In this document: positions 10,911 through 30,755 of the stretch, in pieces
Layout: every line of letters begins with the position of its first letter
Numbering within the stretch: position 1 is the first letter of the stretch
Assembly: GCA_003566455.1 (NCBI GenBank)
Contig: PXDF01000010.1
Span: 1-43,764 of the forward strand
Length of the DNA: 43,764 nucleotides
Direction of reading: 5' to 3'
Origin: Desulfonatronovibrio sp.
GTDB lineage: Bacteria; Desulfobacterota; Desulfovibrionia; Desulfovibrionales; Desulfonatronovibrionaceae
Made by a program: the position numbers and the translations under genes
The notes under the pieces: generated by a model
What the model was told of the DNA's origin: nothing
Database searches by the model: none
What the model saw: the letters and a program-made list of their open reading frames with translations, nothing else

Positions 10911-11207
10911 ATGAAATTTATTCATATCAGTTTCCGTTTTGAATATACAGATGCTGTTGAATTGATTCTTGATAAGCATGCGATCTGTGATTATGTCCGC
11001 TATCCCATGGTTGAGGGACAGGGTTCGGATGGAAAGCATTTTGGAAGTCAGGTTTTTCCGGGCAACTTCACTGTTGTCCAGGCCAGGGCTGATGATGATA
11101 AGGCTGGGCAACTTCTGAATGACCTGGACGCATTCAGACAACTGAAAAAATCCCATGAGCATTTAAGGGCCATAGTCCTTAACGTTGAAGACAGCCTGGG
11201 ATTCTGA
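10911..11207 (+). CDS. PG0541-like (PII-like) transporter-associated protein
   Basis: A 98-residue cytoplasmic protein without signal peptide or membrane segment. The size, the MKFIHISFRFEYTDAVELIL opening strand and helix, and the position directly behind an RND permease fit the PG0541/DUF3240-type family. These are small PII-like ferredoxin-fold proteins that accompany RND exporters. By analogy with PII proteins it may bind the pump or a metabolite to modulate transport; this is inference. The gene is 122 nt downstream of the permease, with AGGA before the ATG. It ends 3 nt from the convergent EIIC gene with no room for a terminator between them. The opposite-strand reading frame over the same bases has no family features. 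Confidence 0.7.
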   Translation: MKFIHISFRFEYTDAVELILDKHAICDYVRYPMVEGQGSDGKHFGSQVFPGNFTVVQARADDDKAGQLLNDLDAFRQLKKSHEHLRAIVLNVEDSLGF

Positions 11208-11210
11208 TCT

Positions 11211-11914
11211 TCATATTCCAGCCAGTTCCCAGACAAAATAAGCAGAAATCATCAAAATTCCAATGGTTAGAGACAGGTAAGCTTTTTTTATGCGAAGGGC
11301 TGCCAGGGCGCTTACCGAGGCAATCAAGAGCAGATGAGCCCATGAGGGATAGACTTGAGCCGGCAGATAACTATAAGCCATCCTCGTGATTGTCAGCAGT
11401 CCGTAAGTACTAAGAATACCTGCAGTTAGATAAATCAAAAGCAATTGGATAATGGAACTGCTGACCATCAGGCCGGGCCTGTAGTCAGCAGACCTGTTTC
11501 TGCTTTGCTGCAGGATGATATTGTAGTTTCTGTTCTGGGCATTCCGCTGGATTCCCTCAAGCCATGAGAATAAGAAGGCTACGGGAATGGTGGCGATCAT
11601 TACAGGAAAAATCTGGGAAGGATATTCAAGATTCAGGATTGCAACGACAGTTATGGTGGCCACCACACAGAATATAGCATTAGGGGGAATAAAAGTTCCG
11701 GCAGGGATCAGGTCTATCCAGAGCAGTTCGAAAAAAAAGGCTATATACATGACTGGAAAAACCTGACCCGTCAGTATGGAAATAATAAAACCGACGATGA
11801 TTGGTCTTTCAATGACACTTAAATTTATGGAGAAGCGGGTCAGGGAAAGCAGGGCAAAAAAAAACCGCCCAGAATAACAGTCCAATGAGTGCTTAAAGCT
11901 TCAAGATTTACCAT
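11211..11914 (-). CDS. PTS mannose-family EIIC component, frameshifted at a homopolymer
   Basis: Most of this membrane protein reads in one frame from 11885 to 11211: several membrane segments with ERPIIVGFIISILTGQVFP early on, as in the sorbose/mannose EIIC family. That frame offers only a TTG start at 11885 and lacks the normal N-terminus. A second frame starts at an ATG at 11914, overlapping the EIIB stop, with AGGTGG just upstream. It encodes MVNLEALSTHWTVILGGFF, then hits nine T residues (11856-11864 on the coding strand) and stops at 11840-11842. One extra T (or two fewer) would fuse the frames into a normal EIIC N-terminus. The gene is therefore a phase-variable, slippage-dependent or decayed EIIC, or carries a sequencing error. 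No EIID gene follows. Confidence 0.8.
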
Positions 11915-12372
11915 TCATCCACCTGGATTTGCTTGTGGGGTACACACCTGAAATCAAGATCAACCCCTTTTCTGGTGAAATAGTTCAGACATGTGCGGTC
12001 ATCGCGGCTCAGGGCGATATGCGAACAGATCTGCTTTTTTCCTGGACCGTAATGCAGATTGCCGATGTTGAGAGAGCTGAACATCAATCCCTTTTCAAAA
12101 GCCTGCCTGGCATCCGAACATTTGGAAAAAAGTATGAACAGGTATGACAGGCGGTGGTCAAATTTTTTTCGGATCAGATCAACGGATTCACTGACGGAGC
12201 TGAAAAAAATGTCAATTCCATGGGGCACTGCCAGGCCCATTATTCCCTGCCTGACAGGGTCTGCTGCCAGTTCATCATTAACTACCAACAGACTTCTGGT
12301 TCTGGTGTAGGGAATCCAGGTTTCTATTACCTGACCGTGAATCAGGCGATTGTCCACGCGTACCCAGAACAT
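11908..12372 (-). CDS. PTS mannose-family EIIB component
   Basis: EIIB accepts phosphate from EIIA and normally passes it to the sugar in the EIIC/EIID channel. The 154-residue cytoplasmic protein opens with FWVRVDNRLIHGQVIETW, whose His12 is the family phosphorylation site (consensus R-x-D-x-R-L-I-H-G-Q-V). It lies 7 nt downstream of EIIA and its stop overlaps the true EIIC start by a few bases, so the three are translated as one unit. In Desulfovibrio-type genomes such PTS genes sit next to rpoN and rapZ. A regulatory rather than purely transport role is plausible but not shown by the sequence. Confidence 0.9.
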   Translation of the reverse strand: MFWVRVDNRLIHGQVIETWIPYTRTRSLLVVNDELAADPVRQGIMGLAVPHGIDIFFSSVSESVDLIRKKFDHRLSYLFILFSKCSDARQAFEKGLMFSSLNIGNLHYGPGKKQICSHIALSRDDRTCLNYFTRKGVDLDFRCVPHKQIQVDEW

Positions 12373-12379
12373 TTCTGTC

Positions 12380-12802
12380 TCAAGCCTTTTTTTGAGATCC
12401 CGGGACAGGGCGTTTTAGGACGTCTCCGGCCACAAGGATGCCCTGTTTGCCGGCCCCCTTGATTTCCTGGGCCAGATCTTCCAGTTTTTTGTTCCTGCCT
12501 CCAATGGCTTTGAGGATCATGGGCAGATTGACTCCGGTGATTACTTCCGTCTGTCCGTGACTTAAAAGGGAAAGACTGATGTTGGTGGGTGTGCCTCCAA
12601 ACATGTCCGTTAAAATGAGTACTCCACTGCCCAAATCCATTCCCCTGACTTTTTTCTGGAGTTCTTCAATTATTTCATTCATTGGTCTGGATACGTCAAC
12701 CCCCAGGGCGTCACAGTTTTCATGATCGCCCATAATCATGGAAGCCGCGTTGAGCAGACTTTCACCAAAGTTGCCGTGAGTAACCAGAATAATTCCGATC
12801 AT
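12380..12802 (-). CDS. PTS mannose-family EIIA component
   Basis: EIIA of the mannose/fructose/sorbose family takes phosphate from HPr and gives it to EIIB. The 140-residue protein starts MIGIILVTHGNFGESLL; His9 in VTHGNFG is the phosphorylation site. LTDMFGGTPTNISL and a C-terminal helix complete the EIIA-Man fold. It is 9 nt downstream of rapZ and 7 nt upstream of EIIB. Genes for HPr and enzyme I, its expected donors, are not in this window. Confidence 0.92.
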   Translation of the reverse strand: MIGIILVTHGNFGESLLNAASMIMGDHENCDALGVDVSRPMNEIIEELQKKVRGMDLGSGVLILTDMFGGTPTNISLSLLSHGQTEVITGVNLPMILKAIGGRNKKLEDLAQEIKGAGKQGILVAGDVLKRPVPGSQKKA

Positions 12803-12811
12803 ATTTTTCTT

Positions 12812-13744
12812 TTATCCTAAATTAAAATGCCTGTGTTCAATGGAAACCAGATAACCCTTATCCTTCAGAAAATCAGCCATATTCTCAACAACGGCTACGG
12901 ATCTGTGCCGCCCTCCAGTACATCCAAAGGCCATGGTCAACCTGTATCTTCCTTCCTCCACTATCAGAGGAATGAGAAAAGCAAGGTAATCCCTGGTGCG
13001 AATAATATAATCTATTCCTGGATTTCGGTTCAGGACATAGTTGACAATTGTCTGATCCTTTCCGGACATATGACGCAGGTCCGGATCAAAAAACGGATTA
13101 GGCAAAAACCTCAGGTCAAATATCATATCCGCCTCAGAAGGAACTCCATATTTAAAACCAAATGATATCAGGTGAATTCTCATTCCAGAAAAATATTGTC
13201 CAGAATACTCCCATTTTTCCTGAATCACTCTTCTCAAATCATGAATGGAAAAGCCTGAAGTATCAATGACCATATGAGCGTCAGAGCGAATCGTGGCCAG
13301 GATTTCCTTTTCTTTTTCCAGGGCCTGCTCCAGTCCAAGATCAAGGGATTCCAATGGATGGGGCCGCCTTGTGGTGGCGTATCTCAGAATCAGAGCATTT
13401 TCCGAGGCTTCCAGGAAAATGATCTGCAGATGGATACTGGCTTTGCTGAGTTCCTGTCTGACCTTTTTCCATTCTGTGGCAAAATCTGATTGTCTGAGGT
13501 CCATACCCAGGGCGAGTCCGCGATAGTTCCTGGGATTTTCCCTGGAGAAAAGGCTTAATACCGGTGGTACCAGAGTCACAGGCAGACCATCAATAGTAAA
13601 AAAACCCAGATCTTCAAACACATTAAGAGCGGTACTTTTACCAGCGCCTGAAAGGCCGGTGATGATGATCAAAGAAAAACTCCGGTCATCACCCTGGTAA
13701 TTAAAGTCATTGAAAGGCTTCAGGTCCTGGTTATCAGGGTCCAT
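12812..13744 (-). CDS. rapZ: RNase adapter / nucleotide-binding protein RapZ
   Basis: RapZ (YvcJ family) is a P-loop protein; in enterobacteria it guides RNase E to the GlmZ small RNA and so controls amino-sugar synthesis. The 310-residue product has Walker A GLSGAGKST (30-38), a Walker B-like region and a C-terminal domain with the family signatures ISFGFKYGVPSEADMIFDLR and GCTGGRHRS. Its start overlaps the end of ptsN by 25 nt. The rpoN-hpf-ptsN-rapZ order is the same as in many Proteobacteria. The regulatory RNA partner known from E. coli cannot be assumed here. Confidence 0.93.
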   Translation of the reverse strand: MDPDNQDLKPFNDFNYQGDDRSFSLIIITGLSGAGKSTALNVFEDLGFFTIDGLPVTLVPPVLSLFSRENPRNYRGLALGMDLRQSDFATEWKKVRQELSKASIHLQIIFLEASENALILRYATTRRPHPLESLDLGLEQALEKEKEILATIRSDAHMVIDTSGFSIHDLRRVIQEKWEYSGQYFSGMRIHLISFGFKYGVPSEADMIFDLRFLPNPFFDPDLRHMSGKDQTIVNYVLNRNPGIDYIIRTRDYLAFLIPLIVEEGRYRLTMAFGCTGGRHRSVAVVENMADFLKDKGYLVSIEHRHFNLG

Positions 13745-14169
13745 AGTTCATCCCTGCTCTCAGCGCGCATAAAGGATTCCTTGAAAGCATGATCCTGAAG
13801 TAATCTTGATATGAAGGCCAGAATTTTCAAGTGTTTGCCCGCGCTTTTTTCCGGGGCCAGGACAAGAAAAAAGATATGCGCGGGTTTATGATCCAGAGCG
13901 GCAAAATCCAGACCCTGTCTGCTCCGTCCAGCAACAATGAGAACTTCATCCAGTTCATCAATCTTGCCATGGGGTATGGCCACTCCATCACCAATGCCGG
14001 TTGTGCCCAGGTTTTCCCTGGTCAGTATTATATCAAAGACCTTATCACGTATCAGGGAAGGGCGTTTTTTTATCAATTGATCAATGAGTTCAGCCAGGAC
14101 TTCGTTTTTGGTCCTGGCTGAAAGCTCTATAATAACCTGATTTTTATCAATATATTGCGCAAGGTTCAT
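13720..14169 (-). CDS. ptsN: Nitrogen PTS EIIA protein PtsN
   Basis: PtsN (EIIA-Ntr) is the phosphate acceptor at the end of the nitrogen-related PTS; it regulates potassium transport and other targets rather than moving sugar. The 149-residue protein has the EIIA-fructose-type fold with His67 in GVAIPHGK as phosphorylation site. It follows hpf by 22 nt and overlaps rapZ by 25 nt. No ptsP or npr gene is seen in the window. Confidence 0.92.
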   Translation of the reverse strand: MNLAQYIDKNQVIIELSARTKNEVLAELIDQLIKKRPSLIRDKVFDIILTRENLGTTGIGDGVAIPHGKIDELDEVLIVAGRSRQGLDFAALDHKPAHIFFLVLAPEKSAGKHLKILAFISRLLQDHAFKESFMRAESRDELWTLITRT

Positions 14170-14191: not shown

Positions 14192-14737
14192 CTACATGCC
14201 TGGGTCAATTAATCCGAAGTCACCGTTTTTACGCCTGTACACAACGTTGACGCGGTCGAATTCAGAATTCAGGAAAACCAGGAATTCATAATTTAATGTT
14301 TCAAGCTGCATGGCAGCCTCTTCCAGAGACATGGGCTTGGGTTCATAAAGGTCAGTGGCTACAATTCTTGTTTCTCTCTGTCCGCTCTCAACAGGCCCAA
14401 AATTTATTATATCCATTCTGACCTGTTTTTCCCTGATCTTCTTCTTTTTATCCTTGACCTTTTCACGCTGTTTTCTGAGCTGAGCCTCAAGTTTGTCCAG
14501 GCTCAAGTCCACGGTTGAATACATATCTTCAGTTTCCTCAGTGGCAGAAATATGTATATCCTTGGCCGTCAGAATTACTTCGGCAATATGCCTGAACTTT
14601 TCAACTTCAAGATTTACCTGCAGTTCTGCCACATCAGTATCGTGCAGATATTTGGAGAGCTTTTCATATCTTTCCCGGGCGTATTTCTTAAGATGCTCAG
14701 AAGGCTCAAAGTTTTTGAAATTGAATTTGATCTTCAT
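14192..14737 (-). CDS. hpf: Ribosome hibernation promoting factor, long form
   Basis: HPF binds ribosomes in slow growth; the long form pairs two 70S ribosomes into inactive 100S dimers through its C-terminal domain. The 181-residue protein has the N-terminal S30EA domain (about 1-95), a charged linker (KDKKKKIREKQ), and a C-terminal dimerisation domain (about 125-181, with MSLEEAAMQLETLNYEFLVF and NVVYRRKNGDFGLIDP). This is longer than the roughly 95-residue E. coli HPF. AAAGGAGG lies just upstream of the ATG, a strong ribosome binding site. It sits between rpoN and ptsN, the usual position. Confidence 0.94.
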   Translation of the reverse strand: MKIKFNFKNFEPSEHLKKYARERYEKLSKYLHDTDVAELQVNLEVEKFRHIAEVILTAKDIHISATEETEDMYSTVDLSLDKLEAQLRKQREKVKDKKKKIREKQVRMDIINFGPVESGQRETRIVATDLYEPKPMSLEEAAMQLETLNYEFLVFLNSEFDRVNVVYRRKNGDFGLIDPGM

Positions 14738-14772: not shown

Positions 14773-16206
14773 TCAGAAAAATTTCTTTCGCCTGGATGAT
14801 GAGGGAATTTTGAGGGCTGCTCTGTATTTGGCAACTGTTCTTCTGGCAATATTCACTTCCAGATCTTTTTTAAGGTTATTGGCAATTGCGTCGTCGCTCA
14901 GGGGCTTTAGGGGGTTTTCCTCAGCAACCAGTTTTTTGATGGCAGCCTTCACGCTTTCAGAACCCACCACCCCTCCACTGTCCATGGTCAAAGAGCTGTT
15001 GAAAAAGAATTTTAATTCAAAGATGCCAAAAGGTGTGGAAACATACTTGCTGGTGGTAATCCTGCTTACAGTTGACTCGTGCATGCTGATGTCCTCAGCT
15101 ACTTCCCTGAGTATGAGAGGTTTAAGTCTGCTCACACCGTGTTCAAAAAATTCCCTTTGAAATTTGAGGATGCTCTCCATTACCTTATACAGGGTCCTCT
15201 GGCGCTGGTGCAGGCTTTTCATGAGCCATACTGCTGAACGGGTTCTCTCCTGGATATAGTCATAGTCTTTTTTATTATTGCCCTTGTGAATGGAATTCTG
15301 GTAATAAGGACTCAGATGTAAGGCCGGCATTCCGTCTTCATTAAGGACAATGGCAAAGTCGTCTTCAAATTTGTAAACAAAAATATCAGGGCTGATATAG
15401 ACCACATCATCTGATCCGTAGCTCGAACCCGGAAATGGATCAAGACTTTGCAGGACTTCTATATACTCTCTTAATAGCTCCTTACTTATCCTGAATTTTT
15501 TGAGCAGAGGCGTAAGCCTGTTTTTTTCAATATCTTCAAGGTGCTCCGTGACAAGTTCCATAAGTATGGGGTCTGTTTCGTTAAGGGCTTTGAGCTGAAT
15601 TCGGAGGCATTCCCGGAGATCCCTGGATGCTATCCCCACCGGATCAAAGTTCTGAATTTTTTCTAAAATACTTTCCACTGCTGATTCTGAAACCGAGCAC
15701 GCCTTAGCCAGCTCTTCAGTGGTAGCCTTGAGATAACCCCTGGAATCAATATTTCCGATTATCTCCTCACCGATCATCAGTTCTTCATCAGTGAAGCTCT
15801 GCAGGAAAAGCTGCCACAGAAGATGACCCTCCAATGACGGCTTGGCAGAGTATCTGGCTTCATAGCTCTGTATTTCCTCTGGAACTTCCCATTCCCTTGA
15901 GCCGGACTGTTTGGAAGTACTGGAAAAGTGACCAAGATAGTCCTCCCAATCAGCGTTGTTGATCATTTCCTTTTCTTCGCTGGTCAGCTTGGCATCCTGA
16001 TCCCGGTCATTAAGGGCGTCTTTTTCAGTTTCTTCGTCAACAAGGGGGAGAGATTCCTCCAGCATGGGGTTTTCTTCAAGTTCCTGCTGGACAACTTCCA
16101 GCAATTCCAATCTTGATAACTGCAGAAGCTTAATGGCCTGCTGAAGCTGCGGAGTCATTACCAGCTGCTGGGTCAGCTTTAAATTCTGTCTTAGTTCCAG
16201 GACCAT
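14773..16206 (-). CDS. rpoN: RNA polymerase sigma-54 factor
   Basis: RpoN directs RNA polymerase to -24/-12 promoters that need AAA+ activators. The 477-residue protein has the Gln/Leu-rich region I (1-50, LRQNLKLTQQLVMTPQLQQA), an acidic region II (about 50-120), the core-binding domain, a helix-turn-helix, and the RpoN box ARRTVAKYR (454-462) that reads the -24 element. It follows lptB after 141 nt. That gap is AT-rich and may hold a separate promoter, though I could not define one. I found no clear sigma-54 promoter in the larger intergenic gaps of this window. Confidence 0.95.
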   Translation of the reverse strand: MVLELRQNLKLTQQLVMTPQLQQAIKLLQLSRLELLEVVQQELEENPMLEESLPLVDEETEKDALNDRDQDAKLTSEEKEMINNADWEDYLGHFSSTSKQSGSREWEVPEEIQSYEARYSAKPSLEGHLLWQLFLQSFTDEELMIGEEIIGNIDSRGYLKATTEELAKACSVSESAVESILEKIQNFDPVGIASRDLRECLRIQLKALNETDPILMELVTEHLEDIEKNRLTPLLKKFRISKELLREYIEVLQSLDPFPGSSYGSDDVVYISPDIFVYKFEDDFAIVLNEDGMPALHLSPYYQNSIHKGNNKKDYDYIQERTRSAVWLMKSLHQRQRTLYKVMESILKFQREFFEHGVSRLKPLILREVAEDISMHESTVSRITTSKYVSTPFGIFELKFFFNSSLTMDSGGVVGSESVKAAIKKLVAEENPLKPLSDDAIANNLKKDLEVNIARRTVAKYRAALKIPSSSRRKKFF

Positions 16207-16347: not shown

Positions 16348-17085
16348 CTACAGGCTGAATGATTCTCCCAGATATACTGTCCTGGCCCTTGTGTCTTGGA
16401 TTATTTCCGATGGTGTTCCATCCAGAATCACCTGACCTTCATAAACAATGGAAGCCCGGTCGCAAATTTTCAGAGTTTCTCTGACATTGTGATCAGAAAT
16501 CAGGATTCCGATATTTTTTTGTTTAAGCCTCAATATTATTTTCTGAATATCATCCACAGCTATGGGATCAATCCCGGCAAAGGGTTCGTCCAGGAGAATA
16601 AATTTTGGATTTTTGATAAGCGCCCTGGCAATCTCCAGCCGCCTGCGTTCACCCCCGGACAAGAAAGACGCTTTTTGATGAGCCAGTTTGTGTATGCCCA
16701 GCTCGTTCATCAATTCATCAGCCTTTTTTTTTCGATCCTGCTTATTACTATGAGTATATTCAAGAATAAGCATAAGGTTTTCAAGAACAGTCAGTTTTTT
16801 AAAAATTGAGCTTTCCTGGGGCAGATAACTAATGCCCAGTCCGGCCCGCCTGGGCAGGGAATGACTGGTTATGTCCTCATGGTCAAAGACCACATTGCCT
16901 CTGCTTGGCGAGATAATACCCACGAGCATGTAAAAAGTGGTGGTTTTTCCTGCCCCATTGGGACCCAGAAGCCCGACGATTTCTCCGCGCCTGATATCCA
17001 GGGAAATTCCCTTGACTACAAGCCTTTTGCCGTACTGCTTGTAAACCTCAATGGCCTTGAAACTATCCACAGATGACTTATTCAC
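16348..17085 (-). CDS. lptB: LPS export ABC transporter ATP-binding protein LptB
   Basis: LptB is the cytoplasmic ATPase of the LptB2FGC complex that extracts lipopolysaccharide from the inner membrane. The 245-residue protein shows Walker A GPNGAGKTT (41-49), signature LSGGERRRLEIARAL, Walker B FILLDEPFAGID and a switch His in LISDHNVRETL. The start is a GTG overlapping the lptA stop by 8 nt, so translation is coupled. The partners lptF and lptG are not in the window. Confidence 0.95.
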   Translation of the reverse strand: MNKSSVDSFKAIEVYKQYGKRLVVKGISLDIRRGEIVGLLGPNGAGKTTTFYMLVGIISPSRGNVVFDHEDITSHSLPRRAGLGISYLPQESSIFKKLTVLENLMLILEYTHSNKQDRKKKADELMNELGIHKLAHQKASFLSGGERRRLEIARALIKNPKFILLDEPFAGIDPIAVDDIQKIILRLKQKNIGILISDHNVRETLKICDRASIVYEGQVILDGTPSEIIQDTRARTVYLGESFSL

Positions 17086-27030: not shown

Positions 27031-27960
27031 TTACAGATTTTTCTGGTATTGAAAAGTGTTCCAGTATCTGCCCTGCCATAATTCCTGAACATGCATTACA
27101 TTTTTTATCTGGTTGATGATGCTGTTTTTTCTGCGCGCCCATTCAGGTGCTATAAGCTCCCCCGGAGCAGGGTCTCCGGTCAACCTGTGAATAATAATGT
27201 CAGGCCGGAGCCCGGCAAGGCCCAGAGCAACCCAGTGAGCGTATTCTTCCATATCCTGGGGTCTGTATATGTTCATTTCCCACATCCTGGCCAGGGTGGT
27301 GTTTCTGCAAATATAAAGGTTGTGAAATTTTATTCCTTTGACTGGTTCTTTGTTCAGAAATTCTATTGTTTCCAGAAAGTGATCAAGAGTTTCACCGGGA
27401 AGGCCGGCAATAACGTGGGCGCATACTTTTATTCCTGCCAGGGATGACAGTCGGCATGATCTGGAAAAGTCCTCGGCAAGGTGTCCTCTGTTGATTCGCT
27501 TTAAAGTTTCATCACGGGAACTTTGAAGTCCCAGGTCCAGCCAGACTTCATCACAGGGAAAAGAAGCCAGGATCCTTATTTTTTCTCTATCCAGACAGTC
27601 AGGCCTGGTTCCAACGCATAAAACACAGAGATCGTCGAGATCACTAAGCTGGTCCAGGACCAGTTCCAGCCTTGCCGGCGAGCAATAAGTGTTGGAAAAA
27701 GATTGCAGGTAAGCGGCAAACTTTATGGGGCCATGTTTTAATATTAATTTTTCCCTGCACAGATTGTATTGATTTTTTATCGAGATGGATTTAAGGCTTT
27801 GACCTGTTCCCGATCCCTGTTCGTTGCAGAAAATACAACCTGTTGAAGAAATGGTCCCGTCTCTGTTTGGGCAGTTAAACCCGGCGTCCAGGGGTATTTT
27901 CCAGACCCTGATCCCAAATTTTTTTTTCCAGTAAGATGAGAGAGTATAGTATTTCTCCAT
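27031..27960 (-). CDS. YhcC-like radical SAM protein (TIGR01212 type)
   Basis: A 309-residue radical S-adenosylmethionine protein. The iron-sulfur Cys residues are Cys30, Cys42 and Cys45 in FNCPNRDG...GCIFC, the CxNRDG...GCxFC layout of the YhcC/TIGR01212 family, rather than the common CxxxCxxC. Other family signatures are LGLQSSRDETLKRINRGH and GLPGETLDHFLETIEFL. The reaction is not established for this family. The ATG at 27960 has GAGG about ten bases upstream; an in-frame TTG two codons earlier is less likely. Its place next to truA could hint at RNA modification, which is inference. Confidence 0.88.
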   Translation of the reverse strand: MEKYYTLSSYWKKKFGIRVWKIPLDAGFNCPNRDGTISSTGCIFCNEQGSGTGQSLKSISIKNQYNLCREKLILKHGPIKFAAYLQSFSNTYCSPARLELVLDQLSDLDDLCVLCVGTRPDCLDREKIRILASFPCDEVWLDLGLQSSRDETLKRINRGHLAEDFSRSCRLSSLAGIKVCAHVIAGLPGETLDHFLETIEFLNKEPVKGIKFHNLYICRNTTLARMWEMNIYRPQDMEEYAHWVALGLAGLRPDIIIHRLTGDPAPGELIAPEWARRKNSIINQIKNVMHVQELWQGRYWNTFQYQKNL

Positions 27961-30272: not shown

Positions 30273-30755
30273 TTGAAGCTGGCGTTCTTCTGGATTTTAT
30301 TCACCGGAGCGGCGATCTGGGCACAGTATTTTTTCCGCACCATGGACTTTTTTTCTCCCGGTCTGGTGGTAATGCTTCAGTTCGGGCTTTACAAACCTTT
30401 CCTGCTGGCGGGGCCTTTATGGATGCTCATTCAGGAAGGCTCAGGCGGGCTGGCTTTTGGCACCATGATTCTTTTTTATCTGGGTTTTATGGTTTTTTTT
30501 TATATCGGCGGTTTTTTTCTGGAAGTCAGAAACGTCTTTTTTACCATGTTCCTGTTTTTGTTCATGGCGCTGTTCAAAATTTTGATCGTTTTGGCTATGG
30601 CGTCCCTTCAGGATTTTGTACTGTCAGGACAGTACGGTTTTGAAGACTTTCTGGTTCAGGCCGTGGTCTATTTTCTGGTCTGGATGATAATTTATAATCT
30701 ATTTCGAAAGTATTTCATCAATGAGTCTTTTAAAGGCAAACAGCATATTCAATGA
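30273..30755 (+). CDS. mreD: Rod-shape membrane protein MreD
   Basis: A 160-residue, very hydrophobic protein with five or so membrane segments, between mreC and mrdA where MreD belongs. MreD proteins are poorly conserved, so the call rests on size, hydropathy and position. The start is a TTG just after the mreC stop, the only usable codon that keeps the first membrane segment. The upstream site (TTGGGGT) is weak, which suggests coupling to mreC translation. It overlaps mrdA by 35 nt. Confidence 0.82.
   Translation: MKLAFFWILFTGAAIWAQYFFRTMDFFSPGLVVMLQFGLYKPFLLAGPLWMLIQEGSGGLAFGTMILFYLGFMVFFYIGGFFLEVRNVFFTMFLFLFMALFKILIVLAMASLQDFVLSGQYGFEDFLVQAVVYFLVWMIIYNLFRKYFINESFKGKQHIQ

Follow-up and report, generated by a model that had tools for sequence, protein, structure and literature searches.

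Most known cases of bacterial recoding come from mobile elements, prfB, dnaX and a small number of secretion genes. The frameshift site of prfB lies early in the gene, as it does in the gene described here, and the dnaX frameshift has stimulators; E. coli ManY, by comparison with the EIIC gene at issue, is one intact reading frame. Slippage on A/T runs operates in IS transposases, Thermus dnaX (A9), Shigella mxiE and Citrobacter tssM1 (A11), each with a homopolymer of at least nine and a slip that restores a longer product (PMC5009743, PMC1088944, PMC4256274). Selection against slippage is visible at run length nine across a large share of bacterial genomes (PMC1088944), and one-base insertions predominate among transcription slips on A/T runs (PMC5574713). 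The mannose-class EIIC gene examined below has a homopolymer of the same kind, at which a slip would likewise restore the longer product.

The EIIC locus of the window

The window is a stretch of 43,764 nucleotides from Desulfonatronovibrio sp., whose source assembly comprises 2.75 Mb in 245 contigs. The closest named relative found was a Desulfonatronovibrio MAG, with 67% protein identity in EIIC. On the minus strand the genes are ordered rpoN-hpf-ptsN-rapZ-EIIA-EIIB-EIIC, with EIIC last (Table 1). EIIC starts at an ATG (11914-11912) that overlaps the EIIB stop and has CAGGTGG, a Shine-Dalgarno (SD)-like sequence, directly 5' of it. Translation from this ATG gives the leader MVNLEALSTHWTVILGGFFLPCFP, which ends after 24 codons at a TGA (11842-11840). 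The homopolymer is exactly T9, in the context GGCGG-T9-GCC, and the remainder of EIIC is open in the frame reached by one extra T. A first-pass annotation of this DNA had described the overlapping ATG, the T9, the stop after 24 codons and the continuation of EIIC one T away, all of which were confirmed when the minus strand was read again.

Table 1. Positions of the EIIC tract, its reading frames and the adjoining genes in the window.
Feature	Position	Strand	Remarks
Zero-frame leader ORF of EIIC	11840..11914	-	ATG, 24 codons, TGA; EIIC N-terminus up to the tract
T9 slippage tract (candidate)	11856..11864	-	A9 on the + strand
EIIC body, mannose/sorbose class (PF03609)	11211..11864	-	Frame read after insertion of one U or a ribosomal shift of -1
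EIIB (PF03830)	11908..12372	-	Stop overlaps EIIC start
EIIA, mannose class (PF03610)	12380..12802	-	
RapZ-like protein	12812..13744	-	Context
PtsN-like EIIA (PF00359)	13720..14169	-	Context
Hibernation promoting factor family	14192..14737	-	Context
RpoN, sigma-54	14773..16206	-	Context

The EIIC body matches Pfam PF03609 (EII-Sor) with E 6.5e-07, better than the curated cut-off, and the gene has the features of a mannose-class PTS EIIC, namely the EII-Sor domain and the partners EIIA, EIIB and EIID. EIID, which is one open frame, lies together with HPr on a separate contig of the window's genome, adjoining a frame that we take from its look to be EI-type. The permease genes of this genome (L108, G000:C84) stand in two rows, with EIID/HPr away from EIIA-EIIB-EIIC. 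ManY of E. coli belongs to the same family as EIIC (profile positions 18-165, E about 1e-4); profile position 18 aligns to ManY residue 29, and extrapolation puts the tract at about residue 12. The leader has the length expected for the first residues of helix 1. The IIA gene of D. vulgaris was reported to be related to its counterparts from the rpoN cluster in other Proteobacteria, and either a regulatory or a transport function was suggested (PMC2405797).

Other features of the window were also recorded. A + strand ORF of 98 residues (10911-11207) is convergent with EIIC and has no Pfam match. Two further A9 coding runs (27919-27927 and 16724-16732) lie in minus-strand open frames of 313 and 253 codons, respectively, both in frame, and a T9 run (30493-30501) lies in an in-frame + strand open frame of 161 codons, with a 125-codon frame overlapping the run.

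Conservation of the tract across the order

EIIC was found in 250 of the 348 Desulfovibrionales genomes searched. We examined 249 of the 250, leaving G235 unread as its match was limited to the C-terminal part, and obtained 250 loci; the N-terminus could be read in all but one of them (L155), which was dropped from all counts. L024, at a contig edge, was dropped from frame and codon counts, L072 and L156 were dropped from codon and SD counts, and L031, from a Desulfonatronovibrio MAG, went uncounted as apparently the same genome as G005.

Inspection of the tract in relatives, a check that the first-pass annotation had proposed, found T9 at the same Phe-Phe-Phe site in 232 of the 249 loci, the others having T8 (five), T10 (four), T6 (two) or no run of at least six (six). 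The T9 form was present in 44 of 48 genera, and each of the order's six families was represented. All 30 single-contig genomes of the first set had T9, as did G109, G156 and G328 of the second set, in which G314 had T10, for a total of 33 of 34. Outside the order but within the same phylum, 102 genomes matched EIIC; 34 of those were read, and the tract was found in none of the 34. Exact T9 is infrequent genome-wide, with just 8-75 occurrences per genome on both strands (12 whole genomes, 2.5-4.3 Mb). On a FastTree tree of 192 proteins from the order and 14 outgroups, computed with the Phe-Phe-Phe residues omitted, the T9 state changes 11 times, corresponding to one gain and about ten losses, a count that long branches make approximate. 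Escapes from T9 are singletons in which the frame is restored. One break and its shift site are retained in many independent lineages, as is characteristic of a programmed frameshift, and the T9 break is best read as an ancient programmed frameshift with a single origin and about ten later losses.

The shift required is also the same across the order. Of the 231 T9 loci that were testable, i.e., that had readable upstream DNA, 230 hold a start in the frame that one added T would join to the EIIC body. In the first set, 163 loci had an ATG only in that frame, nine had one there as well as in the third frame, and seven had GTG or TTG there, while 51 of 51 T9 loci in the second set need one added T, three of them with an additional non-ATG start in the frame of EIIC itself. 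The sole exception, L072, is in frame, with a full GCA codon before the run; L156 carries T9 in a different codon phase, yet needs the same shift. The 17 non-T9 loci have their start in the EIIC frame (L163 is ambiguous), and in-frame starts other than ATG occur at L057, L149 and L250. The conserved start of L163 (G117, T8) does not match the EIIC frame, and only another ATG does; in no other locus is the conserved start displaced in this opposite sense, and the near sisters L160-L162 have T9.

The out-of-frame start of the T9 loci lies 9-20 codons 5' of the tract (mostly 13-16) and often overlaps or adjoins the stop of EIIB, which is directly 5' of EIIC in 192 of 193 loci. SD-like bases precede this start in 170 of 229 loci, compared with 260 of 2290 control windows. 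Judged by these features, the out-of-frame start is the real EIIC start.

Codon usage at the tract points to the run itself. In the zero frame, the codon ending in the first T was GCT, GGT, AGT or TGT in 178 of 178 first-set loci, whereas the same codon boxes in the EIIC body were T-ending in only 466 of 3434 codons. The ninth T was invariant in 178 of 178 loci even though only 1456 of the 2842 Phe codons in the body were TTT, and TTC was avoided at all three Phe codons of the site. Under free codon choice, with one draw per genus (42 genera), the chance of this would be about 1e-16 for T at the ninth position and 1e-37 at the first, values that are overstated because genera are related. Across the 114,891 bases of EIIC body, no second T9 was present, whereas T8 occurred 28 times. 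The base 3' of the run was G in 176 of 178 loci, and the base 5' was always C or G (178 of 178). The shift site is conserved beyond what the protein demands, in its first and ninth T and in the lack of any further T9 in the body, and selection evidently acts on the nine T's as such. The holding of both tract ends fits a homopolymer of nine, since no more than seven T's are required for a single -1 heptamer.

Slippage and the competing explanations

The T9 tract within EIIC is likely to serve as a site of programmed transcriptional slippage, and production of full EIIC probably relies on the copying machinery slipping there. RNA polymerase would slip backwards on U9, a run of about its RNA:DNA hybrid length, so that some of the transcripts gain one U. 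Slipped transcripts would yield full EIIC of about 234 residues and unslipped ones a short dead-end peptide, 24 residues long in the window. The locus has what such a site calls for, an A/T homopolymer of about nine or more at which one slip joins the frames, and one-base insertion, as the usual slip, matches the direction required at the EIIC tract. Shifts in either direction among orthologues, which serve as a mark of slippage by rule of thumb and not as a requirement, were not seen, one direction accounting for 230 of the 231 testable loci.

This fixed direction favors programmed -1 ribosomal frameshifting at U_UUU_UUU or U_UUU_UUG in the tract, whereby the mRNA would stay at nine U's and the ribosome would re-read one of them. 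A single fixed shift direction is taken as the mark of ribosomal frameshifting in Antonov 2013 (PMC3711429), where longer runs also shifted more in reporters, and ribosomal frameshifting free of stimulators exists. In the window, both heptamers are in the right phase for the X_XXY_YYZ pattern. However, the first and ninth T are both invariant, and neither heptamer alone needs both. The stimulator of a -1 frameshift, either a downstream structure or an internal upstream SD, is not an absolute requirement, and neither kind was detected: 3' of the tract, mean z ranged from -0.45 to +0.18 at 30 offsets against synonymous shuffles, and an internal SD was present in just 15 of 229 loci (10.1 ± 2.7 expected), too rare for a shared stimulator. 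On balance, we consider ribosomal re-reading possible but unlikely. A candidate RNA structure further downstream was rejected. In the 50-base segment starting 129 bases after the tract start, it had a mean z of -1.24 ± 0.20 against dinucleotide shuffles, but z -0.24 ± 0.14 at the matching offset in the synonymous-codon control; with the signal gone under that control, it reflects protein sequence.

Of three options given in the first-pass annotation, slippage is strongly supported by conservation across the order, and the same conservation speaks against on/off switching and recent inactivation. Long homopolymers do change length in replication, and T10, the length that would turn EIIC on, occurs in 4 of 249 loci. 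A phase-variable switch toggling between T10 and T9 should nonetheless show both states among relatives, whereas T9 is held in the great majority of loci and six families deep, which makes switching very improbable. The fragmentation of the window's assembly would suit a pseudogene or a homopolymer sequencing error, the latter also suspected in the annotation. Yet the break is common to six families and to all but one of the single-contig genomes, and the EIIC body is open and conserved; this distribution refutes both, and we give them a negligible probability. Also highly improbable is that EIIC initiates in its own frame, for instance at TTG 11885, with the tract a by-product of Phe-Phe-Phe. 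That TTG, named in the annotation, is indeed in the EIIC frame, and some loci have GTG, TTG or ATG in this frame 6-7 codons 5' of the tract, but it is not a shared start, as 126 of 178 T9 loci lack any ATG, GTG or TTG in the EIIC frame between the upstream stop and the tract. Where an EIIC-frame start does occur within 21 codons (53 of 229 loci), none of the 53 has an SD. Nor does a by-product of Phe-Phe-Phe account for the avoidance of TTC, and the run-less lineages (L084, L085) do not retain Phe-Phe-Phe. T9 and the same shift across the order argue for a programmed frameshift, and not for sequencing error, pseudogene or phase-variable switch.

If slippage is the mechanism, a gate about 14 codons into the row's last gene would set the amount of the membrane subunit relative to EIIB; more speculatively, the slippage rate could track polymerase pausing and respond to UTP supply. 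A stronger version, which we regard as doubtful, holds that the order makes EIIC solely via polymerase slippage on U9, that the rate is a control signal tying EIIC-EIID permease assembly to nucleotide and energy state, and that constitutive T10 is selected against. The last element would follow from how seldom the run escapes and from the T10 copy of G314. In that single-contig genome EIIC (L280) has an in-frame start and a second frame break downstream at a G7 run, perhaps reflecting loss after constitutive expression, or decay. L281 (G164), which has T9 and a non-ATG start, likewise contains a second frame break farther along the gene.

Comparison with known recoded genes

We found no description of slippage or programmed frameshifting in this EIIC in the open-licence literature; an earlier listing in Sharma 2011 or the GeneTack supplements is possible. 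The text of Antonov 2013 (PMC3711429) lacks the terms 'phosphotransferase', 'PTS', 'IIC' and 'Desulfo', and the available part of the Atkins 2016 review lacks 'phosphotransferase', 'mannose' and 'Desulfo'. A BLAST search of phage records gave no match. For an ordinary bacterial gene, the EIIC tract would be a slippage candidate with very wide retention, spanning 44 genera, among them high-GC genomes in which T-ending codons are otherwise avoided. Gene-finding programs are likely to label EIIC broken or to trim its start, and the roughly ten independent escapes to an in-frame gene form a natural control set.

The -1 ribosomal frameshifts of dnaX and of the poly-A magnesium chelatase cluster are, like the shift at EIIC, homopolymer-based, with longer runs shifting more in reporters (PMC3711429), but their runs are poly-A, and stimulators were sought at EIIC and not found. 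The +1 ribosomal frameshift of prfB (release factor 2) resembles EIIC in its dead-end short product and wide conservation, the spread of the prfB shift being documented in the same paper (PMC3711429). It differs in its opposite direction and different site type, and EIIC has no in-frame stop at the shift site and no known sensing loop. Compared with the A/T-run slippage genes, the EIIC site sits some 14 codons into an ordinary transporter gene, nearly the whole protein would depend on the slip, the run is fixed at nine across the order, and no functional short form is apparent. Slippage at A9/T9 is already known as a kind, and EIIC, placed by its sequence features, would be a further member of it.
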